Shown: positions 1-26,800 of the stretch, piece by piece | Layout: each line of letters opens with the position of its first letter | How positions within the stretch are numbered: the stretch's first letter is position 1 | Source: Candidatus Gastranaerophilales bacterium | GTDB lineage: Bacteria; Cyanobacteriota; Vampirovibrionia; Gastranaerophilales; Gastranaerophilaceae | DNA length: 41,732 nt | Direction: 5' to 3' | Assembly (NCBI GenBank): GCA_947584965.1 | Contig: CANPWQ010000012.1 | Location: 1-41,732 of the forward strand | Notes under the pieces: model-generated | The model's input: the letters and a program-made list of their open reading frames with translations, nothing else | Told to the model about the DNA's origin: nothing | Database searches by the model: none | Program-made: the position numbers and the translations under genes

Positions 1-345
1 AAATATATTATTATCCCCGGAGTTAATGATAACTTAAATGAAATTGATAAATTTTTTGATTTAATGAAAAAGCTAAATATTGTTGATGTTGCGCTTGATA
101 TTGAAGTAAAGTATGCTCGTGAACATAATAATAAAGATGTTTCAAAACATATCTTCCTGCTTGTTGATTATTTTGAGAAAAAAGCAAAAGAATTAAATAT
201 AAAATTATCAATATACAGTTTTCTTTCTTATGTTATGAAAAACAGAAACATAAAAAAAACAAATTTAATTAATATTAAATTTTTATTTAATTGGTATTTA
301 AAACTCAATAATGATAAAGAAAAAAACCTTATTTATCACAGATAA
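1..345 (+). CDS. Radical SAM protein, C-terminal fragment (group A of the array)
   Basis: The reading frame is open from base 1 and ends in TAA, so the start lies outside the window. It begins with KYIIIPGVNDN followed by an acidic/basic helix. This is the same late-barrel motif (KYI-x3-x-x-ND-x4-E) found in the nine group A radical SAM paralogs between 10.7 and 24.7 kb. The tail of about 114 residues is Lys/Asn-rich. The cluster-binding Cys motif is off the window, so the call rests on this motif and on similarity to the local family. It shows that the paralog family extends at least 10 kb to the left of the main array. Confidence 0.75.
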   Translation, partial: KYIIIPGVNDNLNEIDKFFDLMKKLNIVDVALDIEVKYAREHNNKDVSKHIFLLVDYFEKKAKELNIKLSIYSFLSYVMKNRNIKKTNLINIKFLFNWYLKLNNDKEKNLIYHR

Positions 346-10751: not shown

Positions 10752-11828
10752 ATGTATAAAAGTTGTCATTTAATACAACATGGTTTATGTTTTTTTAATG
10801 ATAATCTGGCAGCGTGCTGTTTTTCGCCCGTTGATCAGATAGATGGTCAGCTTCCTCCTTTAATTTACGAAAAATATTGGGGCGAAATTATACCGGTGGA
10901 TGAACTTTTTAAACGCATGGATAAATATGCCGATGTTTTTAAAAACGGTGGTTGCCCGAGAGAATGCAAAAATTGCTATAAAATAGAAGAAAAAGACTGG
11001 GATAATAAACGTTATATTGACCAGATTACCATTACTCATTTTTCTATGTGTAATGCCGATTGTATTTATTGCACAAATAATCACGAGTTGTGGGAAAGAA
11101 CCTCTAATACTTACAGTATTGTTCCTGTTTTAAAATATTTTCAAGAACAGGGAATAATAAAAAAAGGCTGTGAGCTGCATATAGGCGGCGGTGAGTTTAC
11201 AATTTACCGTGAATGCGATGAACTGTTAGAACTTTTTGCAATTAATAATTATGCAAGAGTTTTTGTTCCGACTAACGCAATAAAGTATTCTCATAACCTA
11301 TTTAGGGCTATGGATGAAGCTAATACATATATTATTGTTTCACTTGATAGCGGAAGCCGAAATACATACAAAAAAATTAAACGTGTTGACGCTTTTGACC
11401 GTGTTATGGACAACTTAAAAAAATATGCTGCAACCGAAAAATCTCGTGAAGCTATAAGGCTTAAATATATTATTGTTCCTACTTATAATGATAATATCGG
11501 CGAATTTAAAAAATTCCTTAAAATAGCAAAAAAACTCGGGGTTAGAAATCTTATCATTGACATAGACGCAAGATATTCACGTATAAATAATTATAAAATT
11601 GATGATTATTTTGTTAATTTGGCAAAAAGAATGAATGATATTGCCATTAAACAGAATTTTACAACGGAGTTTTATTCGTTCTTCTTCCAAAATACCAACA
11701 ATAAAGAATTTAAGAAGGATAATTTTATAACCCGATTTATAAAATCAATTAAATTCAAGTACTTTGATAAAGAATTAAAAGAATTATATATACATCATCG
11801 CTACGGCGCAAAAAGGTTTAAGTATTAA
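10752..11828 (+). CDS. Radical SAM protein, array copy 1 (group A1)
   Basis: A 358-residue radical SAM enzyme of unknown substrate. The [4Fe-4S]-SAM motif is CNADCIYC at 100-107, and the SAM-contacting motif is GGGEFT at 145-150. In front of the core is a Cys-rich module (C5, C13, C22, C23, then CPRECKNC at 68-75) that looks like a SPASM/Twitch-type auxiliary cluster site placed at the N-terminus. Late motifs are SLDSGSRNTYKKIKRVDAFD and KYIIVPTYNDN. A hydrophilic tail follows. The start has no Shine-Dalgarno and is probably read from a near-leaderless transcript. No RiPP precursor lies beside it. Sugar-modifying radical SAM enzymes of the BtrN/AprD4 kind are one comparison. Confidence 0.85.
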   Translation: MYKSCHLIQHGLCFFNDNLAACCFSPVDQIDGQLPPLIYEKYWGEIIPVDELFKRMDKYADVFKNGGCPRECKNCYKIEEKDWDNKRYIDQITITHFSMCNADCIYCTNNHELWERTSNTYSIVPVLKYFQEQGIIKKGCELHIGGGEFTIYRECDELLELFAINNYARVFVPTNAIKYSHNLFRAMDEANTYIIVSLDSGSRNTYKKIKRVDAFDRVMDNLKKYAATEKSREAIRLKYIIVPTYNDNIGEFKKFLKIAKKLGVRNLIIDIDARYSRINNYKIDDYFVNLAKRMNDIAIKQNFTTEFYSFFFQNTNNKEFKKDNFITRFIKSIKFKYFDKELKELYIHHRYGAKRFKY

Positions 11829-11917
11829 TTCAGATTATTTTTTTATTTCACTGTTATTCTATTCGCAACACATAAATATCATTATTTATACTTTTCAAAA
11901 ATTTTTTAACATACTAT

Positions 11918-11946
11918 TTGTAATTAATAAAGAAACATCGTATTAT
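11918..11946 (+). promoter_or_regulatory. Leaderless promoter of radical SAM copy 2
   Basis: TTGTAA (11918-11923), 17-nt spacer, TATTAT (11941-11946), then exactly 6 nt to the ATG at 11953. This places the expected transcription start on the A of the start codon. No Shine-Dalgarno is present. Confidence 0.6.
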
Positions 11947-11952
11947 AAAAAT

Positions 11953-12969
11953 ATGAAAATATGTAATAATTTAAATACTTCAATATGCTTTAATTATAAA
12001 GAAATAGGAATAACTTGGTGTACCTTAACCAACGCAAATAACGGCTTAGGCTGGCCTAAAATTCCTGATGAAGTGTTTGACGGAAAACAAATTGATTGGG
12101 ATAAATTTTTTGATTTTAGAGCAAGAGAAATTGAGTCGATAAAAAATTCTACTGCGCGTAAAGAATGTGTAAATTGTCAGCAAATTGAAGATAAGGATTT
12201 TGTTGACGACAGAAAAATTCATTATATCCTGCTATCGCCTTGGCAGGTTTGTAATTCCGATTGTATATATTGCCTCGGACATGCTCAGCCGAGAGATAAA
12301 AAATCTTCAGGCTATGATGAATTTTATAAAGAATATGTTGAACCTTATGATATGCTTGAAATAATTAAGGATATGATTAAAAATGACGTTCTTGCTTCCG
12401 ATTGTGAAGTAGATTTTGCAGGCGGAGAACCTACTTTATATCCTAAGTTTGACGATATTATTAACTTTTTAGTTGATAACAATTATAAAAATATTATTAT
12501 TCATACAAATAATATTCAGTACTCTAAGGCAATCGAGCGAGGTATAAAAGAAAACGCCATAAGTCTTATGATTTCAATTGATGCAGGTACTAAAAAATGC
12601 CATGAACAGGTGAAACGTGTTAAATCTTATGATAAAGTTTGGCATAATTTTAAAAAATATTCCAAATCAAAAAAGAAAGATTATTCTAAAAGGCTCTGTA
12701 CAAAATATGTAATTGTTCCGGGGGTGAATGATACAAAAAAAGAACTTGAAGAATTTATTAAACAATCTTGCAAAAACGGAGCCACACAGGTTGCTTTAAA
12801 TGTATATAATCAGCTTTTAAATGAAATGAATTATGAAGATAATCTGCTTCATCACCTTGTTGAATTGGCTGATTTTTGGGTGCAAAAAGCTAAAGAAAAT
12901 AAACTTTCTTATATGTTTTTCCCAAATATTGAATTTGTTTATCAAAAATTAAATTTAAATTTGCCTTAA
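11953..12969 (+). CDS. Radical SAM protein, array copy 2 (group A1)
   Basis: A 338-residue radical SAM enzyme. CNSDCIYC lies at 100-107 and FAGGEPT at about 155-161. The N-terminal Cys module is C4, C12, C23 and CVNC at 72-75, one Cys fewer than copy 1. The barrel motifs ISIDAGTKKCHEQVKRVKSYD and KYVIVPGVNDT are kept; the former has a Cys-His in place of the usual Thr-Tyr. It carries its own promoter rather than following copy 1 closely (124-bp gap). Its last 4 bases overlap the stop of the convergent copy 3. Substrate unknown. Confidence 0.85.
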   Translation: MKICNNLNTSICFNYKEIGITWCTLTNANNGLGWPKIPDEVFDGKQIDWDKFFDFRAREIESIKNSTARKECVNCQQIEDKDFVDDRKIHYILLSPWQVCNSDCIYCLGHAQPRDKKSSGYDEFYKEYVEPYDMLEIIKDMIKNDVLASDCEVDFAGGEPTLYPKFDDIINFLVDNNYKNIIIHTNNIQYSKAIERGIKENAISLMISIDAGTKKCHEQVKRVKSYDKVWHNFKKYSKSKKKDYSKRLCTKYVIVPGVNDTKKELEEFIKQSCKNGATQVALNVYNQLLNEMNYEDNLLHHLVELADFWVQKAKENKLSYMFFPNIEFVYQKLNLNLP

Positions 12970-13958
12970 CTAATTAATTTTAAAGCATATTTGTTGATTA
13001 TATATTCTGTTTTATCCCATGTTAACAATTTTATTCCCTTTTCTTCACATAATTTTTTCATGTGAAGATATAAACTCCCATAGTGAGCAGGCAAAGGAGT
13101 TTCATCTAAATTTGTAAACATAACATATTTGTTATCTATCATAAATTCAATATTGCTTATTCCGATATCAGACATTAAGTTTACAAATTTTGTTATTTCT
13201 TCCTGATTATCATTTATATGTTCTATAACAATGTATTTAACTATAATTCTATTCGGGAATTTACTCTTTGCATATTTTCTTAAATTCTCAACCGAATCTT
13301 TAAATTTATCAACTCTTTTTAATTTGTAATAAATTTCCGCTGTTGCGCAGTCAAGAGAGGTTGTATATGTAGTAAGGTTTTTATCTAAAAGCTCTTTTAC
13401 AATCGGCTGGTAGATTATATTATTTGAAAGGATGTAAAATTCTTTGAGTCCGTTTTTTAAAAATTCTTTTACCATAGGTTTAAATTCTTTCAAAACGGAT
13501 ATATCTCCGCCTTGTATACTGACAAATAAATTATCCCTATCAAGTAAATCCTGTTTATATAACGCTTTTACCAGAGGAACAATATCATAGTAATCACTTT
13601 TTCTTACTTTAGTATCAATTTTACCTTTTGAATGAAACATCCTTGCGCAATATATACATCCGCAATTGCAGTGGGTCCAGTGGCTTATATTTATTGTATT
13701 AAACTTCGGTAAAATTATATCCGTTGATTTTCGCTCGCGCAGAAAAAAACATCCTTTGCAAGGTGATTTTTCAATATCTTCTTCGTTTAAGAGTTTGAAC
13801 GCATCGGTTTTTACTGCCCGAAAAGAATCCCAATCTATTTTTTCTCCGCGGTAGTTATCATAATATATCGGACCTATCTGACCTGTACAGCAAGACATAA
13901 TTCTGTCATGGAAACAAGATAAAACATTATTTAATTCATCACAAAAGTACTGCTTCAT
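12966..13958 (-). CDS. Radical SAM protein, array copy 3 (group A2)
   Basis: A 330-residue radical SAM enzyme. The cluster motif is CNCGCIYC (97-104), with an extra Cys inside the usual CxxxCxxC loop. The SAM motif is GGDIS instead of GGEPT (about 150-154). The N-terminal module has C6, C15, CC at 23-24 followed by TGQIGP, and CKGC at 67-70. These three traits are shared with the copies at 22654 and 23669 and define a subgroup. KYIVIEHINDN marks the late barrel. AGGA precedes the ATG. It lies 10 bp downstream of copy 4 on the same strand, so the two are probably co-transcribed. Confidence 0.85.
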   Translation of the reverse strand: MKQYFCDELNNVLSCFHDRIMSCCTGQIGPIYYDNYRGEKIDWDSFRAVKTDAFKLLNEEDIEKSPCKGCFFLRERKSTDIILPKFNTINISHWTHCNCGCIYCARMFHSKGKIDTKVRKSDYYDIVPLVKALYKQDLLDRDNLFVSIQGGDISVLKEFKPMVKEFLKNGLKEFYILSNNIIYQPIVKELLDKNLTTYTTSLDCATAEIYYKLKRVDKFKDSVENLRKYAKSKFPNRIIVKYIVIEHINDNQEEITKFVNLMSDIGISNIEFMIDNKYVMFTNLDETPLPAHYGSLYLHMKKLCEEKGIKLLTWDKTEYIINKYALKLIS

Positions 13959-13968
13959 TTTTTCCTGT

Positions 13969-14979
13969 CTATAAATTTAAAACCAAGGCTCTGTCATAAA
14001 ATTCAAATGCAATTTTTTCCTGCTCGCAGCGGCTTCTTATATACCGTAATAAATCTTTTACATACTCCGGTACTTCACCATTTTGACGAACAAACCATTT
14101 TTCTTCTACATCCGCTATTAAATATTTGACTTCTAATTTGTTTATACAAAGGTCAAGCCATTTGTCTATTTCTTCTTTTGTATCATTTACGTTAGGAATA
14201 ATTATATATTTAACCCCTAAAGATTTCGGATGATACTTCGCTGCTGATTTTGCGTATGCTTTTATGTTTTTACAAACATCATTAAATTTATCAACTTTTT
14301 TTACTTTTTTAAATATTTCTCTGGTGCCTGCGTCAAGGGATATTACTATATGAATATATACATCTTCTGTTTGTAGTACTTTTGCAGCCATTTTGCTGTA
14401 TTTTATTCCGTTTGTGTAAAGAGCAAATTGCTTATTTCCGTATTGAGCAAAAAGTTTTATTATATCATCAAACTTCTTTAATATTACCGGTTCTCCCATT
14501 GCAAATGATATATGAGCTCCGGGCGCTTTTTCCAAATTATATATTTTTTTGTTTAACATTTCTTTGAATAACGGAAATATATCATAAGGCTTGTAGGTTC
14601 TGTGCTCCAGAATTTCTTGATAGGAAAAACAGTATATACAATTCGCATTGCATTCGTTTGAATGCCCTATCCATATCATATCAATGTAATTATCAAGGTC
14701 TGATAAAAATTGTTCTTCGGAATTTTCATCAAATTCTTCTATCCAATGACAGCCTTGGCAAAATGGCGGGATATCTCCATTTCGCATGTTTTTTACAAGC
14801 GTATTTTTTATTTCAAATACTTTATCCCAATCTGCTTTATCTTTTGGTCCTGCGTAGGGGATTATGTAATTATTGTTTCTTTCTTTTGGTGAATGTATAG
14901 AAAGATGGCAATGTCTAAAACAATCATAATGTATATATAAGCCGTGTGCTAAATATCTGCACCTGTACATCTTTCCCAT
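13969..14979 (-). CDS. Radical SAM protein, array copy 4 (group A1)
   Basis: A 336-residue radical SAM enzyme. CNANCIYC lies at 110-117; the SAM motif is changed to FAMGEPV (about 159-165), with the first Gly replaced by Met. The N-terminal Cys module is C7, C20, C24 and CQGC at 74-77. Late motifs are ISLDAGTREIFKKVKKVDKF and KYIIIPNVNDT. An in-frame GTG at 14988 abuts AGAGGT directly and cannot use it. The ATG at 14979 sits 9 nt downstream of AGAGGT and is chosen. First gene of the leftward copy 4-copy 3 pair. Confidence 0.85.
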   Translation of the reverse strand: MGKMYRCRYLAHGLYIHYDCFRHCHLSIHSPKERNNNYIIPYAGPKDKADWDKVFEIKNTLVKNMRNGDIPPFCQGCHWIEEFDENSEEQFLSDLDNYIDMIWIGHSNECNANCIYCFSYQEILEHRTYKPYDIFPLFKEMLNKKIYNLEKAPGAHISFAMGEPVILKKFDDIIKLFAQYGNKQFALYTNGIKYSKMAAKVLQTEDVYIHIVISLDAGTREIFKKVKKVDKFNDVCKNIKAYAKSAAKYHPKSLGVKYIIIPNVNDTKEEIDKWLDLCINKLEVKYLIADVEEKWFVRQNGEVPEYVKDLLRYIRSRCEQEKIAFEFYDRALVLNL

Positions 14980-15032
14980 AATATCCACACCTCTTAAATT
15001 AATTATATCATAACTAAATATTTTACAAGATT

Positions 15033-15060
15033 TTGAAGTATTTTAATAAAGTGATAATAT
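15033..15060 (+). promoter_or_regulatory. Leaderless promoter of radical SAM copy 5
   Basis: TTGAAG (15033-15038), 16-nt spacer, TAATAT (15055-15060), then exactly 6 nt to the ATG at 15067. No Shine-Dalgarno is present. It faces the copy 4 start in an 87-bp divergent gap. Confidence 0.55.
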
Positions 15061-15066
15061 TTATTT

Positions 15067-16452
15067 ATGAAATATAAAAGTTGCCGATTATTAGAACATG
15101 GAATTTATATTTATTTAGACCCCGGAACACAGCAACTGTGCGCAGGACACTGCTGTAATAGCGACCATTTGGAATTTAATGACAGGTTATATATTTACCC
15201 TGATTTAAAAAAGGAAAATTTAAATTGGGACTACGTTTTCTCCGAGAAACGAAAATTAAGAGAAAATGCAAAAAAAGGAATTTATCCTGTTCAATGTGAG
15301 GGCTGTTTTGAGCTGCAAGAGCGCAATTGGGATGATGAGGATTACATTAATCATTTAACGGCAGCGCATATAATGAAATGCAATTCACGCTGTATATACT
15401 GTCCGACGGGAAGAATAGAAGAATGGCATAATAGAGAACAGGATGTTGACTTAAAACCTTTTGTGGAAGAATTATTAAGTAAAAATTTGTTGAAATTTAA
15501 CGGTTCGCTTAGATTTGTTGGCGGCGAACCTACTTTAATGAAAGAGTTTGATTGGCTCGTTGATTTATTTTCTGCTCATAATGTGCCTGAAATATATGTT
15601 CCGACTTCAGGGATAAGGTTATCTAAAAGTCTTTGTAATGTTTTAGAAAAAGTTGAAAGTGCCGCAATTGTTGCAAGTATTGACTCGGGTTGTGCCGATA
15701 CATTTGAAAAGATAAAAGGTACAAAGTTTTATGACCTCGTTATGAAAAATATGAAAACATATCTAAATCATGCCCGCTTAAAAAACTTTGTAATATTAAA
15801 ATATATTCTTCTTACAGGCTATAATGACAGTGCAAAAGAAATTGATATGTGGCTTAAAAACTGTGCGGATATGGGTATTGTTGAAGTTCAGTTTGATAGT
15901 GAACATTCCGTTTCATCTTCTGAAAATTGCGAAAATAAAAAATATATAAATCGTACAATAAAAATGCTGAAATACGCTGAGCTAATAGCAAAAAAATATA
16001 ATATAAAAATTACTTCATTTTTAGCTTTTATGAATAGAGCCAAAAATATATATGAAAAACAATTAGATTTTTATAATAAAAATAAAGACACATTTATTGA
16101 CTTAACCGCCCCACATATTGATTTTAACAAATACTATAAAGACCTTTATATCAATATTGATAAAGATTTTAACCATCTTGAGGATATAGATAAACTTATT
16201 CAAGATGACAGATTTTCACCTTTGCGCAGAGCATTTTTAACTTCCGATTATAAAGAGATAACAAAATCGCCGAATTTTAAAAAGGCAGTTATTACACTAC
16301 TAAGACTTGGATTTGATCTTACTTTTGAAACAAAAATATATAATAAAATCATAAAAGAAATACTGAAAACAAGTAATTCCGAAATAAAAATAAAAGGATT
16401 TCATTTTCCTTGGATTATTGATAAAAATGAAATTTTAGGTAAACTGATGTAA
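15067..16452 (+). CDS. Radical SAM protein, array copy 5, with long C-terminal extension
   Basis: At 461 residues this is the longest paralog. The core matches group A1: N-terminal Cys at 6, 25, 29, 30 and CEGC at 77-80; CNSRCIYC at 105-112; VGGEPT at about 151-156; KYILLTGYNDS. After the barrel ends, near residue 330, it has about 120 extra residues absent from the other copies. These are Lys/Asp-rich and mostly helical in character (for example YIDLTAPH-like and LSD/FKKAVITLLRLGFDL stretches), with no Cys and no domain I recognise. The stop at 16452 directly abuts the stop of the convergent copy 6. Confidence 0.85.
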   Translation: MKYKSCRLLEHGIYIYLDPGTQQLCAGHCCNSDHLEFNDRLYIYPDLKKENLNWDYVFSEKRKLRENAKKGIYPVQCEGCFELQERNWDDEDYINHLTAAHIMKCNSRCIYCPTGRIEEWHNREQDVDLKPFVEELLSKNLLKFNGSLRFVGGEPTLMKEFDWLVDLFSAHNVPEIYVPTSGIRLSKSLCNVLEKVESAAIVASIDSGCADTFEKIKGTKFYDLVMKNMKTYLNHARLKNFVILKYILLTGYNDSAKEIDMWLKNCADMGIVEVQFDSEHSVSSSENCENKKYINRTIKMLKYAELIAKKYNIKITSFLAFMNRAKNIYEKQLDFYNKNKDTFIDLTAPHIDFNKYYKDLYINIDKDFNHLEDIDKLIQDDRFSPLRRAFLTSDYKEITKSPNFKKAVITLLRLGFDLTFETKIYNKIIKEILKTSNSEIKIKGFHFPWIIDKNEILGKLM

Positions 16453-17481
16453 CTATTTTTTATTTCCGAAAATAAAATGCAATTCAGAAAGCAGTCTTGT
16501 CATAGGTGATACTTTTCGGCAATTGTAAACCTTATTTTCAATAATAGCATCAGCCCAAGGCTCTAATTGAAGCTCAAAACCAAGTTTTTTTGCCTGCTGT
16601 TCAAAATATGAATACGCTTTAATAACGGATGATTCTATTACTTGATTTTTTGTTGTATCCATTTTGCTTTCATGGTGGTTAACTGCTCTTGCAACAGTTT
16701 TCACTCCTGCAGTTTTGCAGATTTCAAAAAATTTATCTATTTCTTTTTTATTATCGTTTACGTTCGGGAAAATAATATATTTTAACTTTACCCTGTTTGA
16801 TTTATCTGCACTTTCAGAAATATATTTTTTTATTGTTTCAATTACTTCATCGAATTTATCGACTCTTTTAATTCGTTTATAAGTTTCACGGCAGCCGCAA
16901 TCAAGCGAGATACAAATGGTATTGTGATTATCTGCCTTTAACATTTCGCTTATAACAGGCTCATATTTTATTCCGTTCGTTAAAACTTCCATGCGGCAAT
17001 TTTGCGATAAAAGAAGTTTAACAATGGCGGGAAATTCCTCAAGCATAGTCGGTTCTCCGCCCATAAAAGCTATAAAAGAATCTTGATTTAATCTGCCTTG
17101 ATTTATTAATTTCTCGATAATTGGCAGAGAATCATAATCATCACTCTTTTTTACTCCGTCATGGAAGTCTGAACCTACGGAACAGTAAAAACAAGCCGCG
17201 TTGCAATGCTTCCAATTAAATACGGTTATTTTAAATATTTTACCGTCAAACTCTTTCCAATCCTGCTCTTTAAGTTCAGGACATAACTTGCAGCGCTCGG
17301 GGATTATTCCCTGTTTCATTTCTGCAATAATTTTTAATCTGCGCGCTTCATTTTTTTCAAATGCATTTTCTTCACTGTAATGTATATATTCAGGTCCTTC
17401 CCATACTTCATTACAGTATTTAAACCCGTTAAATCCTAAATCTATACTTCCTAATATATGGTTACAGCATTTATATTGCAT
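16453..17481 (-). CDS. Radical SAM protein, array copy 6 (group A1)
   Basis: A 342-residue radical SAM enzyme. CNAACFYC lies at 93-100 and FMGGEPT follows about 40 residues later. N-terminal Cys residues are C5, C6, C23 and CKLC at 64-67; the spacing differs from copy 1 (a CC pair at the very N-terminus). Motifs ISLDCGCRETYKRIKRVDKFD and KYIIFPNVNDN are present. GGGAG precedes the ATG. It is divergent from copy 7 across 70 bp and ends against copy 5. Substrate unknown. Confidence 0.85.
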   Translation of the reverse strand: MQYKCCNHILGSIDLGFNGFKYCNEVWEGPEYIHYSEENAFEKNEARRLKIIAEMKQGIIPERCKLCPELKEQDWKEFDGKIFKITVFNWKHCNAACFYCSVGSDFHDGVKKSDDYDSLPIIEKLINQGRLNQDSFIAFMGGEPTMLEEFPAIVKLLLSQNCRMEVLTNGIKYEPVISEMLKADNHNTICISLDCGCRETYKRIKRVDKFDEVIETIKKYISESADKSNRVKLKYIIFPNVNDNKKEIDKFFEICKTAGVKTVARAVNHHESKMDTTKNQVIESSVIKAYSYFEQQAKKLGFELQLEPWADAIIENKVYNCRKVSPMTRLLSELHFIFGNKK

Positions 17482-17551
17482 TTTTTACTCCCGTTATTTA
17501 CATTATACCAAAATCAAGTATTTTATTATATATTTTTATTTAGAGGTATTT

Positions 17552-18556
17552 ATGAGCGAAAATTATGCAATTTGCACATTTCCTTTTAACGCCGCACAAA
17601 TAAGCATGCAAGGTGAGGTATTCGTCTGCTGTCCTCCGTGGTGTAATAATTATTCTTTCGGTAATATTTATGAACAATCTTTTGATGAAATATGGAATGG
17701 GGATAAAGCAAAGGAATTTCGCAGACAGTTTATTAATAATGATTATAAATATTGTAAACTTGATTTATGCGTTAAAGATTGCGCTCAAAAAATAATTCCT
17801 TCAGAAACTGTTGAAAAACCAAAAACTTTTATATTCTGCTATGATACGATATGCAATGTAAAATGTATCTTTTGCCGCAGCTGTCATCAAAATCAGGATT
17901 TATCATACTTTGATGAAAATATGGATGAGATAATCTCAAATATGCTTGAAAATGCCGAAAATGTTGTATTGTCAGGAGTTGGAGAGGCTCTGTTCAGTCC
18001 GCATTCAAGAAAACTTATAAAACGAATTTCCGAGATGTTTCCTAATATTAAATTTTCGCTTATTTCTAATGGGATTTTATGTGATGAAAAAAATTTAAAA
18101 GAACTCGGGATAATTGATAAATTGCTCTCAATAACTGTTTCACTCCATGCCGTAAAGAAATCAACTTATGACAAACTTGTTAAAAACGGTGATTTTAACA
18201 AAGTTATGGAAAATTTAAAATTTCTGTCCCAACTAAAACAAACAGGAAAACTTGACAGATTTATATTGAATTTTGTTGTAACTGCTTATAATTACCGAGA
18301 AATGAGCGATTACATAAAAATGGCTGAAAAACTCGGCGCCTCTGTCGGCTTTTTGGAACTTTTAAAACTTGAAACAAATGAAGATGTATATGAAGAACTT
18401 AATATATTTAACGAAAATCATCTTAAATATAATGATTTCGTAAAAGTTATGAAAAACCCTATATTCCGCTCGGGTAAATGTACAATTAATGATACAATGC
18501 TTAATTTAAAACCTGTTAATTTTATTAAATCTTTAAAAAACAGATTTTTAAAATAA
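17552..18556 (+). CDS. Radical SAM protein, array copy 7 (group B, N-terminal SPASM)
   Basis: A 334-residue protein. It starts with a recognisable SPASM-type half: CTFPF at 8-12, G..FVCCPPWC at 21-31, YSFGNIYEQSFDEIWNGDKA (about 34-53), then C68, C73, C77. The radical SAM core follows, with CNVKCIFC at 101-108 and SGVGEALFS as the SAM-contact region. In most radical SAM/SPASM proteins this SPASM module is C-terminal, so the order is inverted. The late motif is NFVVTAYNYREM in place of the group A KYI...ND motif. AGAGGT precedes the ATG. It leads a rightward operon of four genes (copy 7, copy 8, copy 9, SGNH-like). Confidence 0.85.
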   Translation: MSENYAICTFPFNAAQISMQGEVFVCCPPWCNNYSFGNIYEQSFDEIWNGDKAKEFRRQFINNDYKYCKLDLCVKDCAQKIIPSETVEKPKTFIFCYDTICNVKCIFCRSCHQNQDLSYFDENMDEIISNMLENAENVVLSGVGEALFSPHSRKLIKRISEMFPNIKFSLISNGILCDEKNLKELGIIDKLLSITVSLHAVKKSTYDKLVKNGDFNKVMENLKFLSQLKQTGKLDRFILNFVVTAYNYREMSDYIKMAEKLGASVGFLELLKLETNEDVYEELNIFNENHLKYNDFVKVMKNPIFRSGKCTINDTMLNLKPVNFIKSLKNRFLK

Positions 18557-18599
18557 GTTTATAATATAATATTTTTATAAGATTTTACGAGGGAAAAAA

Positions 18600-19583
18600 A
18601 TGGCATATTTATCATGTGAATTTGTTGAAAACGGAATGTGTTTTATATATGACGCTGCTGTTTTATGCTCATATTCAATGTGCATGAAATTTGAAGCAAT
18701 AAAAATAATAGAAAATTATAAAGGTGAATTATTTGATTGGGATAAAATAAGGCAAATTAAGCAGGAATACCGTGACAGATTTGCTAAAAATGATATACCG
18801 CCTATTTGCCAGGGCTGTCCCAGTTTAAAAGTTAAAGACTGGGCAGGGGATATGCAATTAAAGTATATTCTTATTAATCACTGGGAAAACTGTCCGCTCG
18901 ATTGTATATATTGCCATACTCATGAACGTAAAAAAGAACTTAATAAAATGAAACCGTGGAAAATCCTCCCTGTTTTAAAAGACGCGCTTAAAAATAACAT
19001 GTTAAGTTATGAAGGGAATGTTAATATTACAGGCGGAGAGCCTACGGTATTAAAAGAATTTCCCGATTTAATGAAATTTTTCTTGGAAAAAACCAATATT
19101 TTCATTATGACAAATACGGCTGCTATTGATTATTCAAAGTGGATTAGAAAAGCTATCGAACTTAGACGTTCTGCGCCTACAATATCACTGGACGCAGGAA
19201 CAAGGGAAACTTATAAGAAAATTAAAAATGTTGATTGTTTTGATAAAGTTATAAAAAATATTAAAAAATATCAAAAGGGCTTAGACCCTATCAGAAACAG
19301 TTTAATCGGATTAAAATATATTTTTATCCCCGGGTATAATGATACTTTGGAAGAAGTTCAAAGCTGGCTTAAAATAGTGGAAGATTTAGGTATAACAAAT
19401 CTTCAATTAGAACTAGAACATCACTGGTATGAAAAAAATAAATACTGCCCCGATAATGTTAAGGAATATATTGAACTGGTGGTTCAATATGTTCATAAAC
19501 ACAAATGCAACTTATCATACAGAGAAATTCTTACAACTTGCGGGTATACAGAAGTTATAAGATATATAGATAACGGCAGGTAA
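18600..19583 (+). CDS. Radical SAM protein, array copy 8 (group A1)
   Basis: A 327-residue radical SAM enzyme. The cluster motif is CPLDCIYC (98-105), with Pro in place of the usual Asn, and the SAM motif is ITGGEPT. N-terminal Cys residues are C6, C14, C23, C28 and CQGC at 70-73. Motifs ISLDAGTRETYKKIKNVDCFD and KYIFIPGYNDT are kept. GAGGGA is placed 6 nt before the ATG. It lies 43 bp after copy 7, and only 1 bp separates it from copy 9, so a group A and a group B protein are made together, perhaps as sequential enzymes. Confidence 0.85.
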   Translation: MAYLSCEFVENGMCFIYDAAVLCSYSMCMKFEAIKIIENYKGELFDWDKIRQIKQEYRDRFAKNDIPPICQGCPSLKVKDWAGDMQLKYILINHWENCPLDCIYCHTHERKKELNKMKPWKILPVLKDALKNNMLSYEGNVNITGGEPTVLKEFPDLMKFFLEKTNIFIMTNTAAIDYSKWIRKAIELRRSAPTISLDAGTRETYKKIKNVDCFDKVIKNIKKYQKGLDPIRNSLIGLKYIFIPGYNDTLEEVQSWLKIVEDLGITNLQLELEHHWYEKNKYCPDNVKEYIELVVQYVHKHKCNLSYREILTTCGYTEVIRYIDNGR

Positions 19584-19584
19584 T

Positions 19585-20622
19585 ATGACCCGGAAGCACA
19601 TATATTGTCCAAACCCTTATATCTTAGCTGAAATAATGCCGTTTGGGAACGTATATCCTTGCAGTTGCGGCTGGATTAAAGGATATTCTTTCGGTAATAT
19701 TTTTGAAGAGTCTTTTGATGAAATTTGGAACGGGGATAGGGCAAAAGAATTCAGACAAAAACTTTATGATAATGATTTTTCGCTTTGCCCGGGATGTCAA
19801 AATCTAGAAATCCTGCAAGATATTCAAGACGATAAGCCTAAACTTATTTCAGAGCCACCTGAACGTATATTGCTTGGTTTGGATGAGTTTTGTGATGTTA
19901 AATGTATTTTTTGCAGAGCGGAAAATTATAAAATTAATCCTAATCTCATTCCTAAGGATAAAGAAGATAAACTGCTTGAAATACTAACTCCGTGGCTGAA
20001 AAATGCTAAGTATGTCAAGACAAATGCGGTCGGAGAAGTCTTTGCAAGTAAAATTTCAAGAGATTTAATTAAAGATATTGCGATTAATTTCCCTGATATA
20101 AAGTTTGAAATAATAACAAACGGGATAAAATGCACCAAAGAAAATATCGAGCAATTAAATCTTACAAACAGAATTTCAATGATGACGGTATCTCTGCATG
20201 CTTTCAAAGAAGAAACATATAATAAAATAGTTAAAGGCGGAAATTATAAAAAAGTTATTGAAAATCTTCATTATCTGGCAGAACTTAAAAAATCCGGACA
20301 AATAGAAAGATTTGAGCTTCATTATACTGTTACAAGCATAAACTATAAAGAAATGCCTGATATGATAAGGTTTGCACGTATGCTTGGCGCAAAAATCAGA
20401 TTTTTAGGTCTTGACTGCTCAAGGGACTTAGAAGAACTTTATAAAAAAATTAATATTCAAAATAAAGAACATCCGTTATATAATGATTTAGTCAAAATTG
20501 TTCATTCAAAAGAATTTCTGGAGTCAAAAGATATTGTTATTCAAGGCTGGGAGTATTTTACGGGACTGGAAAAAATTTCAATTTTTAATAAACTTTTAAA
20601 CAAATATAAGAAAGGGTTATAA
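19585..20622 (+). CDS. Radical SAM protein, array copy 9 (group B, N-terminal SPASM)
   Basis: A 345-residue radical SAM protein with the SPASM-like half first: C8, CSC at 26-28, YSFGNIFEESFDEIWNGDRA (34-53), C68, C71. The core follows, with CDVKCIFC at 103-110 and NAVGEVFAS as the SAM-contact region. The late motif is HYTVTSINYKEM. Its SPASM Cys set is smaller than in copy 7 (CSC versus CC...C, and CxxC rather than C4C3C), so the auxiliary cluster may differ. The ATG follows the copy 8 stop by 1 bp, with AGGT inside the copy 8 tail, indicating translational coupling. Confidence 0.85.
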   Translation: MTRKHIYCPNPYILAEIMPFGNVYPCSCGWIKGYSFGNIFEESFDEIWNGDRAKEFRQKLYDNDFSLCPGCQNLEILQDIQDDKPKLISEPPERILLGLDEFCDVKCIFCRAENYKINPNLIPKDKEDKLLEILTPWLKNAKYVKTNAVGEVFASKISRDLIKDIAINFPDIKFEIITNGIKCTKENIEQLNLTNRISMMTVSLHAFKEETYNKIVKGGNYKKVIENLHYLAELKKSGQIERFELHYTVTSINYKEMPDMIRFARMLGAKIRFLGLDCSRDLEELYKKINIQNKEHPLYNDLVKIVHSKEFLESKDIVIQGWEYFTGLEKISIFNKLLNKYKKGL

Positions 20623-20624
20623 CG

Positions 20625-21551
20625 ATGAAAGAAAAAATTTTGAAAATTTTTAAAATAACTGTAATTATTATTGCAATTTTGTTAATAATAAATTATGGAA
20701 TATTCTTATATGGGGTATTTAAAAATCCTTTAAAGTTCTCCTCGGTTTCAGCATTAAAAAGAAAAAATTTTTCTGTGGAAAACTTAATGAATGAAGATTA
20801 TAGAGAACCGTCCGGATTAAATTATAAAAATAAAAAATCAATAATCGTTTTTGGTTGCGGATATGCTGAAGGTGTTGATTTAAATGATGATCAAACATTT
20901 GAAAAAAAATTATCTGATTATTTAAAAGTTCCGGTCTATAACAGGGGATTTGGTGCCGGGTTTATTCAACATGCTATTTTGCAGGTCCAAAGCGGAAAAA
21001 TTGATGATATTATTAAAAACAGTTCTACGGCAATATATATTATAGCTAATAAGAAAGATTTTATAAGATTAAAAACATATCCGAGTAATTTATTTGATCC
21101 ACAATTTGTATATTCAAAAGAACTTTATCCTGTATTTAAAGACAAAGATGATGATTTAGTTTTAATTAATTCTAAATTCCCTTCAGTTTCGGGAAATATA
21201 TTTAGCCGATTAATTACTAAAGTTTTCTATAAGAACTTTTATGAAAAAATTTATTCGGATTTAGAAGAATTGACAATTATACATTTAGAAAAATTAAATG
21301 AAGAATTGAAAAAACTCAATCCTAACATTAAATTAGTTGTATTAATGTATTGTGAATCAGGTGATATGAAACAATTCAATAAGGCATTAAAAAAAGGTGG
21401 AATTACCGTTTTATATGTAACAGAATTGACTGAATTACCTATGAATGAATTATTATCTGATGAATACCAAACTAAACAGTATAAGCATCCGAATGAAAAG
21501 GTTTGGAATCTTTTAACACCTGCTATTGCTAAAGAATTAAAGAAATTATAA
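20625..21551 (+). CDS. Membrane-anchored SGNH-hydrolase-like protein lacking the usual Ser
   Basis: A 308-residue protein with one N-terminal membrane segment (about 9-31, IIIAILLIINYGIFLYG) and an outside domain. KSIIVFGCGYAEGVDLNDDQTF (72-92) matches block I of SGNH/GDSL-like proteins. There the motif is normally G[CDG]SxxxG, so the nucleophile position holds Gly here. Near the C-terminus, HPNEKVWNLL (from about 288) resembles block V with its His, but the Asp two residues before the His pair is absent. It may therefore be a binding or degenerate member rather than an esterase. It starts 2 bp after copy 9 and ends the operon before a strong terminator. Confidence 0.65.
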   Translation: MKEKILKIFKITVIIIAILLIINYGIFLYGVFKNPLKFSSVSALKRKNFSVENLMNEDYREPSGLNYKNKKSIIVFGCGYAEGVDLNDDQTFEKKLSDYLKVPVYNRGFGAGFIQHAILQVQSGKIDDIIKNSSTAIYIIANKKDFIRLKTYPSNLFDPQFVYSKELYPVFKDKDDDLVLINSKFPSVSGNIFSRLITKVFYKNFYEKIYSDLEELTIIHLEKLNEELKKLNPNIKLVVLMYCESGDMKQFNKALKKGGITVLYVTELTELPMNELLSDEYQTKQYKHPNEKVWNLLTPAIAKELKKL

Positions 21552-21570
21552 AAATAGTCTAAAAATATTC

Positions 21571-21616
21571 TATCGGCACATTTATAAATATATGTGCCGA
21601 TATTTTATATTTTTTG
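21571..21616 (+). terminator. Intrinsic terminator after the copy 7-8-9-SGNH operon
   Basis: An 11-bp perfect stem, TATCGGCACAT (21571-21581) with ATGTGCCGATA (21592-21602) around a 10-nt loop, followed by a T-rich tract (TTTTATATTTTTT). It lies 20 bp after the SGNH-like stop. Its T tract runs into the -35 of the next leaderless promoter. Confidence 0.8.
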
Positions 21617-21642
21617 CCAATTAATTAGTATTATAATACAAT
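21614..21642 (+). promoter_or_regulatory. Leaderless promoter of radical SAM copy 10
   Basis: TTGCCA (21614-21619), 17-nt spacer, TACAAT (21637-21642), then exactly 6 nt to the ATG at 21649. No Shine-Dalgarno is present. The spacing is identical to the copy 2 promoter. Confidence 0.6.
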
Positions 21643-21648
21643 TTAATT

Positions 21649-22668
21649 ATGAGTAAAATATGCGCACATCCTTTTAAAAGTATTCAAGTACAAAATACAG
21701 GTGAAATATATTGTTGCTGCTGCTATTGGACTGATTTTTATTCATTCGGAAATATTTTTGAACAGACATTTGATGAGATTTGGAATGGAGAAAAAGCAAG
21801 AGAATTTCGCAAACAGTTTATTGAAAATAATTATAAATACTGTAAATTAAATGTTTGTGATCCTGCATATTCTGATATTACACCTCAATACGAAGCACCG
21901 TATCCGAAACGTATTGAATTCAGTTATGACAGGCACTGTAATGTACGCTGTATATTCTGCCGAAAAGAAAAAAATAAAGAAGAAGAAGAATTTAACAGGC
22001 AGAAAGAAAAAAGAATTGAAGATAATTTTGACAAGATATTTACGCCTGTTATTGAAAAAGCTGAACTTGTGGAACTTAATTCCGCAGGAGAACTTTTTGC
22101 AAGCAGGCATTCAATTGAAATATTAAAAAAAATTATTAAAATTAATCCCGATATTAAGTTTGGTGTTATATCTAACGGAATATTATTTACTAAAGAAACA
22201 ACTCAAAAACTCGGACTTGAAGAGAGGTTAGATTATGCAATAATTTCAGTTCACGCTGCAAGCGAGAAAACATACAATAAACTTGTTGAAAGGGGCAATT
22301 TCAAAGCGGTTATCGAAAATGTTAAATATTTATCCGAATTAAAAAAACAAGGGAAAATAAAAAGTCTGCAGCTTAATTTTGTTGTTACTTCTTTAAATTA
22401 TAAAGAAATGAAAGATTTTGTTAAATTTGCAATTGATATGGACGGAACCGCATTTTTTATTAACTATCACAGGCAAATTGACTCTGATGAACTTGAAAAT
22501 AACTTAGATATTACACGGGAACAACACCCTAAGCATAATGAACTGGTTAAAATTCTTTCTGATCCGATTTTCAATAGTGAGCATTGTTTTGTTAATGATT
22601 ATCTTAAAAATTTAAAGCCTGTTAAATTTCCCTTATTTCAGACAATAAAAAATTTACTTAAAAAATGA
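21649..22668 (+). CDS. Radical SAM protein, array copy 10 (group B, N-terminal SPASM)
   Basis: A 339-residue radical SAM protein. The SPASM-like half has C5, a run of four Cys at 22-25, FYSFGNIFEQTFDEIWNGEK (about 30-49), C65 and C70. The core has CNVRCIFC at 97-104 and NSAGELFAS. The late motif is NFVVTSLNYKEM. The CCCC run is unusual even in this family. A Lys/Glu-rich insert follows the cluster motif (about 105-125). Its last 15 bases overlap the 3' end of the convergent copy 11. The stop codon is TGA. Confidence 0.85.
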   Translation: MSKICAHPFKSIQVQNTGEIYCCCCYWTDFYSFGNIFEQTFDEIWNGEKAREFRKQFIENNYKYCKLNVCDPAYSDITPQYEAPYPKRIEFSYDRHCNVRCIFCRKEKNKEEEEFNRQKEKRIEDNFDKIFTPVIEKAELVELNSAGELFASRHSIEILKKIIKINPDIKFGVISNGILFTKETTQKLGLEERLDYAIISVHAASEKTYNKLVERGNFKAVIENVKYLSELKKQGKIKSLQLNFVVTSLNYKEMKDFVKFAIDMDGTAFFINYHRQIDSDELENNLDITREQHPKHNELVKILSDPIFNSEHCFVNDYLKNLKPVKFPLFQTIKNLLKK

Positions 22669-23646
22669 GCCTTTATCTAAAATCTCTTTAACGTATTCCC
22701 AGATATTTGCTTCAATGTTGTATTGTGCGCATTTTTCTTTATAAAACTTAAATAAATCGTAATAATAATCAGGGATTTTAAATTCTCCCTCAGAAACAAA
22801 TTCGCTGTCGCATTGGTCTATCATTAATTCGGAGTTTGTAATACCGATTTCGTGCATAAGTTCAATATATTTTGTTAATTCTTCCTTGTTATCATTAACT
22901 CCGCGGACAAGTATATATTTTAATCTTAACAGAATTGGCAGTTTTACGTATTTTTTTAAGTTTTCTACAACATCATCAAATTTATCAACGGTTTTAATTT
23001 TTTTAAATGTTTCACGGCATCCTGAATCTATTGAAATATTTACATCGACAAATGTTTTGCTTGCAATTTCCGCAATTTTAGGAAGATATTTTATACCGTT
23101 GGTTGCTATTTCAACTCTTTTAACTCCGTTTTTCATAAAAATATCTACAAGCGGTTCAAACTCATCTAAAACAGATACATTCCCGCCCTGAAAATGGACA
23201 TCAAGCTCTTTTTTATCAATAATATCCTGCCTGTAACATTCTTCTATTATAGGTAATAAATCATAATAGTCGCTTTTTTTTGATTTTAATACTATTTTTC
23301 TTTGTGATAAATACTGTTCACAGCAATATATACAGGAGCAGTCGCATTGTTTAAAGTGTTTTACTATTATTAAATTAGCTTTAGGCAGTTTGCTAAATCT
23401 GCTGATTAATAACGGTTTGGGATTTTCCTGCTCATGAAGGTCAAAGCAATCTTGGCATTCAGCGGGGATTTTACCCTCATCAAGCATTCTTATAAGAGAA
23501 TTTCTTTTTTTTATAATATCTTTTACATGCTTTGGAGAGGGAATATCAATAGATGGACCTGTTCTTGTTGCACAGCAGTAAAAGACTTTAAGTGCGTCAA
23601 AATTTAAAGTTTCATTTAATCTTTTGCAATAGTACCTTTTTTTCAT
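22654..23646 (-). CDS. Radical SAM protein, array copy 11 (group A2)
   Basis: A 330-residue radical SAM enzyme from the chosen start. CDCSCIYC lies at 101-108, with the extra internal Cys of group A2. The SAM motif is FQGGNVS. The N-terminal module is C7, CC at 24-25 followed by ATRTGP, and CQDC at 64-67. KYILVRGVNDN is the late motif. An open frame continues upstream to 23826 but would run antisense through copy 12; the ATG at 23646 starts with the family's MKKRYYC opening and sits 6 nt from a TATAAT box. Its 3' end overlaps copy 10 by 15 bp. Confidence 0.85.
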   Translation of the reverse strand: MKKRYYCKRLNETLNFDALKVFYCCATRTGPSIDIPSPKHVKDIIKKRNSLIRMLDEGKIPAECQDCFDLHEQENPKPLLISRFSKLPKANLIIVKHFKQCDCSCIYCCEQYLSQRKIVLKSKKSDYYDLLPIIEECYRQDIIDKKELDVHFQGGNVSVLDEFEPLVDIFMKNGVKRVEIATNGIKYLPKIAEIASKTFVDVNISIDSGCRETFKKIKTVDKFDDVVENLKKYVKLPILLRLKYILVRGVNDNKEELTKYIELMHEIGITNSELMIDQCDSEFVSEGEFKIPDYYYDLFKFYKEKCAQYNIEANIWEYVKEILDKGSFFK

Positions 23647-23652
23647 AACTTC

Positions 23653-23662
23653 ATTATATAAT
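23653..23662. promoter_or_regulatory. Self-complementary bidirectional -10 box
   Basis: ATTATATAAT is a 10-bp palindrome that reads TATAAT on each strand. It is flanked by exactly 6 nt on both sides, then by the ATG of copy 12 (23669) and the ATG of copy 11 (23646). The whole divergent gap is 22 bp (6+10+6). Either orientation predicts a transcript starting at the start codon. The -35 positions fall inside the opposing genes and are weak (ACCTTT, and TTAAAA on the minus strand). Confidence 0.65.
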
Positions 23663-23668
23663 AATTTT

Positions 23669-24664
23669 ATGAATATTTTAAATCTTTTTAAATCTAAAAA
23701 ATCATATATGTGCCCGTTATTGAATAATAATTTGCACTTTACCTCAAGAAATACCTTAGAACCATGTTGTAGTGCAAATATAGGTCCTGCTTTAGTCAGT
23801 AATTTATCAGAAAAAGACTCAATCAAAGAATTTATAAAAGCAAAAAAACACTATATTGAAATGTTTAAATCCGGTAAAATTCCTGCTGCGTGCAAGGATT
23901 GTGTGCATATTGCCGAATATAAAAAGCAAAGTGATTTTAGAATTAATAAAATTACGCTTAACCATTATACTCAGTGTAACTGCGCTTGTATATACTGCAC
24001 GCAGGGAAACAGGTCTTTTGAAAAAATTAAGGAAGATGAAAATAAACCTGTTTTATATGATGTTTTAAAATTTATTAATGAGCTTTATGATAATAATTTA
24101 ATTGACCGTGAAAAGTTATATATTGATTTCCAAGGCGGAAATATATCCTGCCTTAAAAATCATCAGGAGATTATTGATACTTTTTTAAATCGCGGGGTAG
24201 GTACTATATACATTCCGACAAATAATATTGTCTATATGCCTGTAATAGAAAAACTTTTAGCTTCAAAAAAAGGAGAACTTTGCACCGCACTTGATTCAGG
24301 CTGCAGTGAAACATACTTAAAAATTAAGCAGGTTGATAAATTTGATAAATCAGTAGAAAATTTAAAAAAATATATTGAAAAAGCCGGCGCAGACTCTATC
24401 ATAATTAAATATATTATTGTGAACGGATTTAATGATAATATGGAAGAAATCGTTAAATTTATGAATTTAATGCTTGAAATTGGAATTAAAATCATTGTTG
24501 TTGATATTGATTATCGAGATATTATTGATAAATCATATACAATCCCCAAACATTATTATGATATTGTTAACTATGTAAAAAAGACCTGCATTGAACATAA
24601 TATGGATTTTGGCATGCCGCCTTATACCCAAAGAGTTCTTGAACGCGGATTTTCAATAAAGTAG
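23669..24664 (+). CDS. Radical SAM protein, array copy 12 (group A2)
   Basis: A 331-residue radical SAM enzyme. CNCACIYC lies at 103-110, with the extra Cys; the SAM motif is FQGGNIS. N-terminal Cys residues are C15, CC at 33-34 followed by SANIGP, and CKDC at 75-78. The late motif is KYIIVNGFNDN. Compared with copy 11 it has about ten extra N-terminal residues (NLFKSKKSY). It is divergent from copy 11, its close relative by motif, suggesting duplication with inversion. There is no Shine-Dalgarno; the TATAAT box is 6 nt from the ATG. The stop is 41 bp from the convergent copy 13 stop. Confidence 0.85.
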   Translation: MNILNLFKSKKSYMCPLLNNNLHFTSRNTLEPCCSANIGPALVSNLSEKDSIKEFIKAKKHYIEMFKSGKIPAACKDCVHIAEYKKQSDFRINKITLNHYTQCNCACIYCTQGNRSFEKIKEDENKPVLYDVLKFINELYDNNLIDREKLYIDFQGGNISCLKNHQEIIDTFLNRGVGTIYIPTNNIVYMPVIEKLLASKKGELCTALDSGCSETYLKIKQVDKFDKSVENLKKYIEKAGADSIIIKYIIVNGFNDNMEEIVKFMNLMLEIGIKIIVVDIDYRDIIDKSYTIPKHYYDIVNYVKKTCIEHNMDFGMPPYTQRVLERGFSIK

Positions 24665-24705
24665 CTATTAGTATGTTTCGTGGTTAAATATTTGCATATA
24701 GTTCT

Positions 24706-25785
24706 TTAAAAATTTTTATTAAATGTTATTTTCTTTTTAAAATACTTCAAATAGTTAATCAATATTTTGTATTTTGGTATTGGTTTTAAGTTTTTAAATA
24801 TATTTGGTATTCTTATACCATTTTCCGAATAACGCTTTATGCAATCATTCATTATTCTTACAAAGTCATTATAGTGACGGTGATATGGCTGAAAAACCAT
24901 ATATTCTTCACAATTTTTATTCATTTTAATTGAATTATTTTTTTTCCTGTATTCCCATATTAACGGAAAAACATCATTTTTGCGGGCAAATTCAATGAAA
25001 TCCGGTATCTCTTTATAGTTAAGTGAGTTAACTACAAAAATTAAAGATACAATCGGAACAATTCCTTTCTTTTTTAATTCAAATATATATTGAAGATTTT
25101 TCATTACAATATCATAATTTGATCCTCGCATTATTTTTTCAAAGGTTGTTTTTTTAAGGGCGTGTATTGATATGTGAATACAAGCAATTCTATTTTCAAT
25201 TCCAAGCGATTTGACAAAAGTTTCATTAAATAGTAAAGCGTTAGTAAGTAAATCAAATTTTAAGTTTGGACATTCTTTGGCAGCTTTTTTTATTATCGAT
25301 TGAGAATGTTTGGAATAGGTTACTTCGCCAACCGTAGTTATAGCGAGTATTTCGGCAGATTTTAATGCCGGAATTAAAATTGTATCTATTAGTTTATTCC
25401 ATTTTTCTTCATTTTCAAATTTTTCTTTATAATCTCTGCAAAATAAGCATTTTATGTTACAAGAGTTATCATAAGAAAATCTTAATGCCTTGGGATAGGC
25501 AGGACGGGGTGATAAATTTATTTTTCCATATTTAAAATCTTTATAACAAATATCATTATTACACAATGAATAATCATTATTTAGTAATTTTTGTCTTAAC
25601 TCAATGGCTTTATCTGAATACCATATTTCATCAAATGAGCTTACTTCAAATATATTTCCTATGTAATAATCTTCTTTAAAATAGTCAGGACAACAAGTAT
25701 AAACTCTTCCGTCGGAATATATTTCACATTCACAAAATGGTTTCTGACAGATAGAAAAATCATTTTCTTTTGCTATATTTTCCAT
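24706..25785 (-). CDS. Radical SAM protein, array copy 13 (group B, N-terminal SPASM)
   Basis: A 359-residue radical SAM protein. The SPASM-like half has C13, C18, C20, CC at 31-32, YYIGNIFEVSSFDEIWYSDK (about 40-59), C75 and C80. The core follows, with CNIKCLFC at 109-116 and TTVGEVTYS. The late motif is IFVVNSLNYKEI. The C-terminal 40 residues are Lys/Phe-rich. It follows the ketopantoate-reductase-like gene by 40 bp on the same strand and is probably the last gene of that transcript. All four group B copies share the IGNI/FGNI...FDEIW signature. Confidence 0.85.
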   Translation of the reverse strand: MENIAKENDFSICQKPFCECEIYSDGRVYTCCPDYFKEDYYIGNIFEVSSFDEIWYSDKAIELRQKLLNNDYSLCNNDICYKDFKYGKINLSPRPAYPKALRFSYDNSCNIKCLFCRDYKEKFENEEKWNKLIDTILIPALKSAEILAITTVGEVTYSKHSQSIIKKAAKECPNLKFDLLTNALLFNETFVKSLGIENRIACIHISIHALKKTTFEKIMRGSNYDIVMKNLQYIFELKKKGIVPIVSLIFVVNSLNYKEIPDFIEFARKNDVFPLIWEYRKKNNSIKMNKNCEEYMVFQPYHRHYNDFVRIMNDCIKRYSENGIRIPNIFKNLKPIPKYKILINYLKYFKKKITFNKNF

Positions 25786-26797: not shown

Positions 26798-26800
26798 ATT

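Follow-up and report, generated by a model that had tools for sequence, protein, structure and literature searches.

Radical S-adenosylmethionine (SAM) enzymes use a core cluster to cleave SAM to a radical which takes a hydrogen from a C-H bond, and an auxiliary cluster can anchor the substrate or accept an electron, as in BtrN. The closest described enzymes are presumably the radical SAM sugar enzymes, among which we count BtrN (butirosin; with a twitch module), BlsE and DesII. Nucleotide-sugar enzymes are the usual explanation for the variety of sugars in bacterial glycans. A second point of comparison are the extracytoplasmic three-component glycosylation systems, which in the excerpt of PMC11127046 consist of a polyprenyl-phosphate-sugar synthase for the lipid-linked donor, a MATE flippase and a GT-C enzyme; for some of them the same excerpt expects an epimerase to act on the lipid-linked sugar. 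Here we describe an array of thirteen radical SAM genes in a stretch of 41,732 nucleotides (the window), which is one entire contig (CANPWQ010000012.1, C12 of 74) of the assembly GCA_947584965.1 from a Candidatus Gastranaerophilales bacterium. The array and the sugar-transfer genes found with its relatives point to an undescribed route to unusual cell-surface sugars.

Gene content of the array

The array lies at 10752-25785. An earlier note, made from the letters of this stretch, had reported thirteen intact radical SAM genes here, all with CxxxCxxC and in at least three sequence groups. All open reading frames (ORFs) are indeed present, all 13 proteins score above the Pfam gathering score for Radical_SAM (PF04055, 29.5 bits) and the motif is invariant in 13/13 (9/9 in family A, 4/4 in family B). 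The number of groups had to be revised to two, family A with nine and family B with four genes, which are homologous to each other nearly end to end (hhalign probability 97.3, E 2.3e-11). The genes are listed below with coordinates in the window, strand and supporting scores.

10752..11828, plus strand: A1, family A radical SAM protein; PF04055 61.6 bits; AlphaFold model with pLDDT 78.8 and a radical SAM fold
11953..12969, plus strand: A2, family A radical SAM protein; PF04055 60.2 bits
12966..13958, minus strand: A3, family A radical SAM protein, QGGD replaces GGE; PF04055 51.4 bits
13969..14988, minus strand: A4, family A radical SAM protein; PF04055 57 bits
15067..16452, plus strand: A5L, family A radical SAM protein, extended C-terminally by about 130 aa, a feature that orthologs retain; PF04055 41.8 bits
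16453..17481, minus strand: A6, family A radical SAM protein; PF04055 66.6 bits
17552..18556, plus strand: B1, family B radical SAM protein with N-terminal SPASM domain; PF13186 54.2 bits (residues 8-69); PF04055 44.8 bits
18600..19583, plus strand: A7, family A radical SAM protein with the lowest dN/dS of the array, 0.020; PF04055 63.1 bits
19585..20622, plus strand: B2, family B radical SAM protein with N-terminal SPASM domain; PF13186 54.6 bits; PF04055 42.4 bits
20625..21551, plus strand: SGNH-like protein with one predicted transmembrane (TM) helix, GCG replaces GCS; family profile and motif
21649..22668, plus strand: B3, family B radical SAM protein with N-terminal SPASM domain; PF13186 49.6 bits; PF04055 47.1 bits
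22654..23646, minus strand: A8, family A radical SAM protein, QGGN replaces GGE, start re-set to the ATG at 23646; PF04055 43.3 bits
23669..24664, plus strand: A9, family A radical SAM protein, QGGN replaces GGE; PF04055 38.4 bits
24706..25785, minus strand: B4, family B radical SAM protein with N-terminal SPASM domain; PF04055 46.2 bits; PF13186 43.4 bits

For A8 the TTG start of the frame 22654-23826 is probably wrong, and the ATG at 23646 abolishes the overlap with the gene starting at 23669. From the coordinates, the intergenic gaps within the array are at most 124 bp and two gene pairs overlap slightly. Therefore, a precursor gene cannot fit between the array genes, which agrees with the view of the earlier note that this is not an ordinary locus for ribosomally synthesized and post-translationally modified peptides, although precursors elsewhere in the genome were not systematically searched for.

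Conservation and distribution

The array was compared with array stretches from 11 other genomes, which were chosen by hand and some of which are cut by contig ends. Orthologs were called as best matches with at least 48% identity, and the 12 radical SAM genes of the window without B4 served as the reference core; no B4 ortholog was found in the array stretches of G015 or G003. These two genomes have all 12 core genes, G002, G020, G019 and G014 have 11 (in G014 on two contigs), G006, G001 and G030 have 10, and G023 and G017 have 7. Order and relative orientation of the orthologs are mostly retained, with the array split into two blocks in G030 and G014 and with A8 and B3 swapped in G023 and G017. 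Because the gene order recurs in other assemblies, the array is not an assembly artefact, and the concern that separate loci had been joined was not borne out.

Each of the nine A genes falls into its own clade with 100/100 support and a long stem in a tree of 59 rows, and a quick tree built from more rows (145) gave a concordant picture. Mostly one copy per species is present; G002 has two A3-clade copies and G014 two A7-clade copies. The dN/dS values were 0.020-0.114 against G015 (12 radical SAM genes) and 0.020-0.095 against G003 (11 radical SAM genes with finite dS). The 12 array genes are thus under strong purifying selection, and the nine A paralogs are old lineages, each maintained as an ortholog in its own right. 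Both agree with the earlier note, which had supposed selection on each gene and had judged the genes too divergent for recent duplicates.

Family A was detected in 36/41 genus genomes at 5-43 copies each, where at most 54 candidates were scored per genome and high copy numbers may be underestimates. Outside the genus, 23 genomes of the order and class gave one weak match, and 6/145 other genomes of the phylum have one or two distant matches each. Family A is therefore a genus-level expansion. Family B is present in 34/41 genus genomes. In line with the gut Vampirovibrionia host that the earlier note had in mind, the named relatives are mostly metagenome-assembled genomes of Candidatus Gastranaerophilales, with one Candidatus Avigastranaerophilus faecigallinarum. 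Over its 1.73 Mb the window's genome gives 62 matches to Radical_SAM, compared with 20 and 21 in two genus members without family A, which speaks against an array of unrelated housekeeping enzymes. The family-A profile matches the window's genome 26 times at E <= 1e-30, in 25 cases across nearly the whole model, and the fragment at the window start comes in addition. Two small dispersed family-A groups have identical neighbours in G014 and are therefore also at conserved sites. A phage origin was not indicated, as one family-A protein gave no match in tblastn against 50,697 phage records; the PHROGs matches of five proteins were generic.

Protein architecture

According to the hhalign comparison of A with B, both families appear to carry an auxiliary iron-sulfur (twitch/SPASM-like) module N-terminal to the radical SAM core. 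The auxiliary domain PF13186 was found N-terminally in all four family B proteins above 21.5 bits and in 0/9 family A proteins at E 0.001. Motifs were counted in relatives collected at E <= 1e-25, 146 for family A and 39 for family B. In family A each site of the pattern C..C..CxxC, which aligns with the module of family B, is kept in 142-144 of the 146 relatives. For family B, three N-terminal cysteines are kept in 39/39 and the fourth in 29/39 at that column. The core motif CxxxCxxC is present in 146/146 and 39/39 relatives, respectively. Further cysteines are invariant inside single ortholog groups and differ among most groups. BtrN aligns through its C-terminal part with the N-terminal module of family B (E 4.6e-10). 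Each enzyme would bind two [4Fe-4S] clusters, of which one sits in the core and the other in the N-terminal module.

Glycan-related genes in the sister arrays

The carbohydrate context proposed in the earlier note comes mainly from the sister arrays and is weak in the window. A GDP-mannose 4,6-dehydratase-like (GMD) gene is interleaved between the array radical SAM genes in 7/11 sister genomes; the one GMD-like protein scanned reached 380.9 bits in Pfam and 392 bits for TIGR01472 (cut-off 415). Polytopic GT-C-like proteins of about 520 aa are interleaved in 8/11 sister arrays, and SGNH-like genes occur in 6/11. In or beside some of them GT2, DegT aminotransferase and another type of radical SAM gene are found (two GT2, one DegT and one radical SAM protein scanned), and beside one sister array a GT2 gene lies near a cupin gene. 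The variation expected from the earlier note is thus seen in the interleaved GT-C-like, GMD and SGNH genes, whereas the radical SAM set is largely one-to-one.

The family of about 520 aa has no meaningful Pfam, NCBIfam or PDB sequence match. Roughly 10-13 TM helices by hydropathy and a DD motif after TM1 were seen in 7/7 members examined of 18 found. We take an acidic (DD) motif after TM1 as the criterion for GT-C, and the number of helices falls within the range of 7-13 given in the excerpt of PMC11127046, so that the family appears GT-C-like. It is present in exactly those 36/41 genus genomes that have family A and in 0/145 other genomes of the phylum (at most 10 candidates scored per genome). 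The four members in the window's genome are all on other contigs, and two of them flank an SGNH-like gene.

Within the window one gene was recognised as clearly concerned with surface polymers, a CsaB-type polysaccharide pyruvyl transferase at 1906-2916 (255.7 bits; NCBIfam cut-off 213.1). Elsewhere, lone family-A genes overlap a MATE gene (L050:1665-4023) or adjoin an EamA gene (L047:9186-11035) on the same strand, one case each. Beside one dispersed family-A cluster, orthologous in two genomes (L043:5075-7729 and L116:324-3296), there are proline/threonine (P/T)-rich repeat proteins, one with 11 GPT triplets and one with long PTT repeats, which are possible O-glycan acceptors.

The SGNH-like protein and the B1 fusion

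Neither Pfam nor NCBIfam gives a match for the protein at 20625-21551, which is SGNH-like by motif alone. We regard a catalytic Ser in block I as the criterion for an SGNH hydrolase. Here block I is GCG in place of the GCS of relatives such as L094, L090 and L043, so the Ser is absent and the nucleophile is probably missing. For the SGNH-like membrane protein of the earlier note, the reading as a plain SGNH hydrolase is not supported. Among the SGNH-like copies in general, some have GCS, others GCG or GCA, and in several the motif is missing. The copy in the window also evolves faster than the neighbouring radical SAM genes (dN/dS 0.385 against G015). Of 19 named loci with a B1 ortholog, four encode it as a fusion with an SGNH-like membrane domain, and one of these four is cut at a contig end.

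Flanking genes and other arrays

The neighbours of the array in the window are a lipoate ligase gene on one side and ApbA, TPR and B12-type radical SAM genes on the other. Further features are:

1..345, plus strand: additional family-A radical SAM gene, truncated at the contig edge to its 3' end; A1 profile match at 1-255, model positions 236-322
25826..26797, minus strand: ApbA/PanE-type ketoreductase; PF02558 70.1 bits
26801..27556, minus strand: TPR protein
27583..28671, minus strand: radical SAM protein related to B12-dependent enzymes; PF04055 96.2 bits
29068..29460, plus strand: small protein, presumably cupin-like, next to the B12-type radical SAM gene as in sister arrays; ARD Pfam 17.2 bits, below the cut-off

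ApbA homologs sit among further radical SAM genes in G006, G001 and G015, and a weaker TPR match does so in G006 and G001; the ApbA and TPR genes of the window (25826-27556) may be the remnant of a second radical SAM array. The B12-type gene adjoins the array in several sisters and is present in 18/41 genus genomes and in 0/5 of those without family A. Its open frame in the window has 402 codons, compared with 453-518 in 17/18 other matches (one has 299), and its N-terminal part looks shortened. A second kind of array is found in G014 (L115:5380-17592), where seven head-to-tail radical SAM genes for proteins of 513-540 aa precede a family-A gene of the same strand; one of the seven proteins was scanned and had a weak B12-binding match (28.6 bits, cut-off 32.1).

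Several proteins, among them those encoded at 9597-10007 in the window and at L047:11037-11990, have an F-G or F-x-G motif shortly after their N-terminus, and such starts occur also in a genome without family A. The N-terminal xFxG-type pattern was not enriched in 237 kb of the window's genome (5/218 ORFs); stretches of two genomes without family A gave 1/106 and 1/73 ORFs. As the pattern is no commoner N-terminally than in residues 91-150, it was dropped as a motif of protein substrates. Invertible or recombining cassettes were likewise rejected: among the best 20 of 28 direct repeat families and 25 of 52 inverted pairs, the longest repeats lie within the paralogs' own coding sequence, with no sign of an invertible promoter. 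Promoter-like sites (120, compared with 100.8 +/- 9.9 in shuffled sequences, about 2 s.d. above) and terminator-like sites (11, compared with 6.9 +/- 2.7, about 1.5 s.d. above) were not used.

Possible function of the array

We favour, tentatively and at somewhat less than an even chance, the reading that a genus-specific set of radical SAM enzymes tailors sugars for a cell-surface glycan and has its main cluster in this array. In its favour are the gene order and orthology across 11 other genomes, the nine A clades, the low dN/dS values, the retention of CxxxCxxC, the GMD-like and GT-C-like genes of the sister arrays, the matching distribution of family A and the GT-C-like family, the B1 fusions, the BtrN match of the family B module and the precedent in PMC11127046. 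Each paralog would take a hydrogen from one sugar C-H bond, with epimerisation, dehydrogenation or deoxygenation as outcome. The substrate would most likely be a lipid-linked sugar or oligosaccharide in the cytoplasm, and the paralogs would work in parallel on such intermediates. The modified donor would be flipped and then used by the GT-C-like membrane proteins outside the cytoplasm, and SGNH-like proteins would add or remove acyl groups. The fixed radical SAM set would yield the same unusual sugars throughout, and species would differ through their variable sets of GT-C-like, GMD and SGNH genes, a combination which suggests constant building blocks in species-specific polymers.

Several points weigh against this and limit our confidence. 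GT-C-like and GMD genes are absent from the window's own array and from those of three sisters. The family-A copies are scattered, with nine in the array and the others single or in groups of at most four amid housekeeping genes. The GT-C fold is putative, and the co-occurrence of family A with the GT-C-like family possibly reflects a single loss or gain. Sequence matches are led by protein and RNA enzymes, with anSME as top PDB match of the A profile, and the fold list of the A1 model is led by protein and RNA enzymes above sugar enzymes. Since sugar enzymes are not favoured, the fold match was not used for function. A broader proposal, which we find doubtful, is a genus-wide 'radical glycan' system in which some 25-45 radical SAM paralogs per genome of about 2 Mb, in many species and each fixed on one position or sugar, alter lipid-linked sugars at the C-H level by inversion, deoxygenation or oxidation. 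A GT-C-like family that is restricted to the genus and has co-evolved with them would then transfer the products to surface polymers or to P/T-rich proteins. If this were true, the variety of sugars would arise from radical chemistry on already activated sugars, and not from nucleotide-sugar enzymes.

The radical SAM set could instead form one long multi-step pathway to a single complex metabolite, lipid or cofactor, with the glycan genes as mere neighbours. The 12 genes that are mostly one-to-one and largely in the same order, the paralog-specific invariant cysteines, tetraether-lipid synthase as second PDB match of the A profile and the G014 array of seven larger paralogs beside a family-A gene would all fit. 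We nevertheless consider it unlikely, as 5-43 family-A copies per genome are odd for a single pathway, the glycan genes are interleaved and not just flanking, and some B1 orthologs are fused to an SGNH-like membrane domain. About equally unlikely is the modification of peptides or proteins, with ribosomal substrates encoded elsewhere, for example the P/T-rich proteins beside the dispersed A cluster in two genomes. In its favour, Mmp10, PFL-AE, SuiB and SkfB, which are among the top fold matches of the A1 model, act on proteins or peptides, and anSME is the best PDB match by sequence. The SPASM/twitch literature, in the excerpts among the matches listed, is also largely on peptide maturases such as SkfB and PqqE. 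However, the short gaps exclude a precursor between the array genes, the one N-terminal motif that was guessed showed no enrichment in this genome (substrates elsewhere were not systematically searched for), and P/T-rich tails suit O-glycosylation equally.

Maturation or activation of metalloenzymes or glycyl-radical enzymes by many paralogs is improbable. The best NCBIfam scores of B1 and B2 are for putative metalloenzyme maturases (for B1 TIGR04311 with 82.2 and TIGR04317 with 77.1 bits), but they lie far under the cut-offs of 400 and 380, and reading of the window's proteins revealed no client enzyme beside the array. Even less credible is a viperin-like anti-phage nucleotide chemistry: PADLOC pVip models match 8/9 radical SAM proteins scanned with 27-59 bits, but the matches are confined to the core domain, the N-terminal auxiliary module is extra, and the NCBIfam viperin model NF038283 (cut-off 180 bits) reached at most 47.5 bits among the matches listed for eight array proteins.

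If the sugar-tailoring reading is true, uncultured gut bacteria would make rare sugars by another kind of chemistry, with a large conserved radical SAM bank linked to glycan genes. This bank would offer about a dozen divergent, conserved enzymes with individually testable substrates, and the role of radical SAM enzymes with an N-terminal twitch module becomes testable via their neighbourhood. The host genus comprises uncultured, non-photosynthetic gut cyanobacteria that keep dozens of ancient, intact radical SAM genes.

Comparison with known systems

Among the matches listed from the openly licensed PMC literature (titles and starts of abstracts) there was no description of such an array or of such a family in this order. 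The three-component systems in the excerpt of PMC11127046 resemble the present case in the polytopic GT-C-like family, in the MATE gene that overlaps an A gene elsewhere in the genome and in the GT2 gene beside a sister array. They differ in that here many radical SAM tailoring enzymes take the place of other epimerases and the full trio is not together in the window.

Radical SAM proteins with an N-terminal auxiliary module are a known kind, and here they stay below the cut-off of the nearest named family. This family, NF033640, has likewise an N-terminal twitch module followed by the radical SAM core and matches B1, B2, B4 and A2 weakly. With 40-59 bits and a best score of 59.0 (8/13 array radical SAM proteins scanned) against a cut-off of 170, the array proteins are not members by this measure. 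In BtrN the auxiliary module is C-terminal, whereas in the array proteins it is N-terminal. Finally, BtrN, BlsE and DesII each represent one enzyme in an antibiotic context, whereas here dozens of paralogs are found in a glycan-type context.

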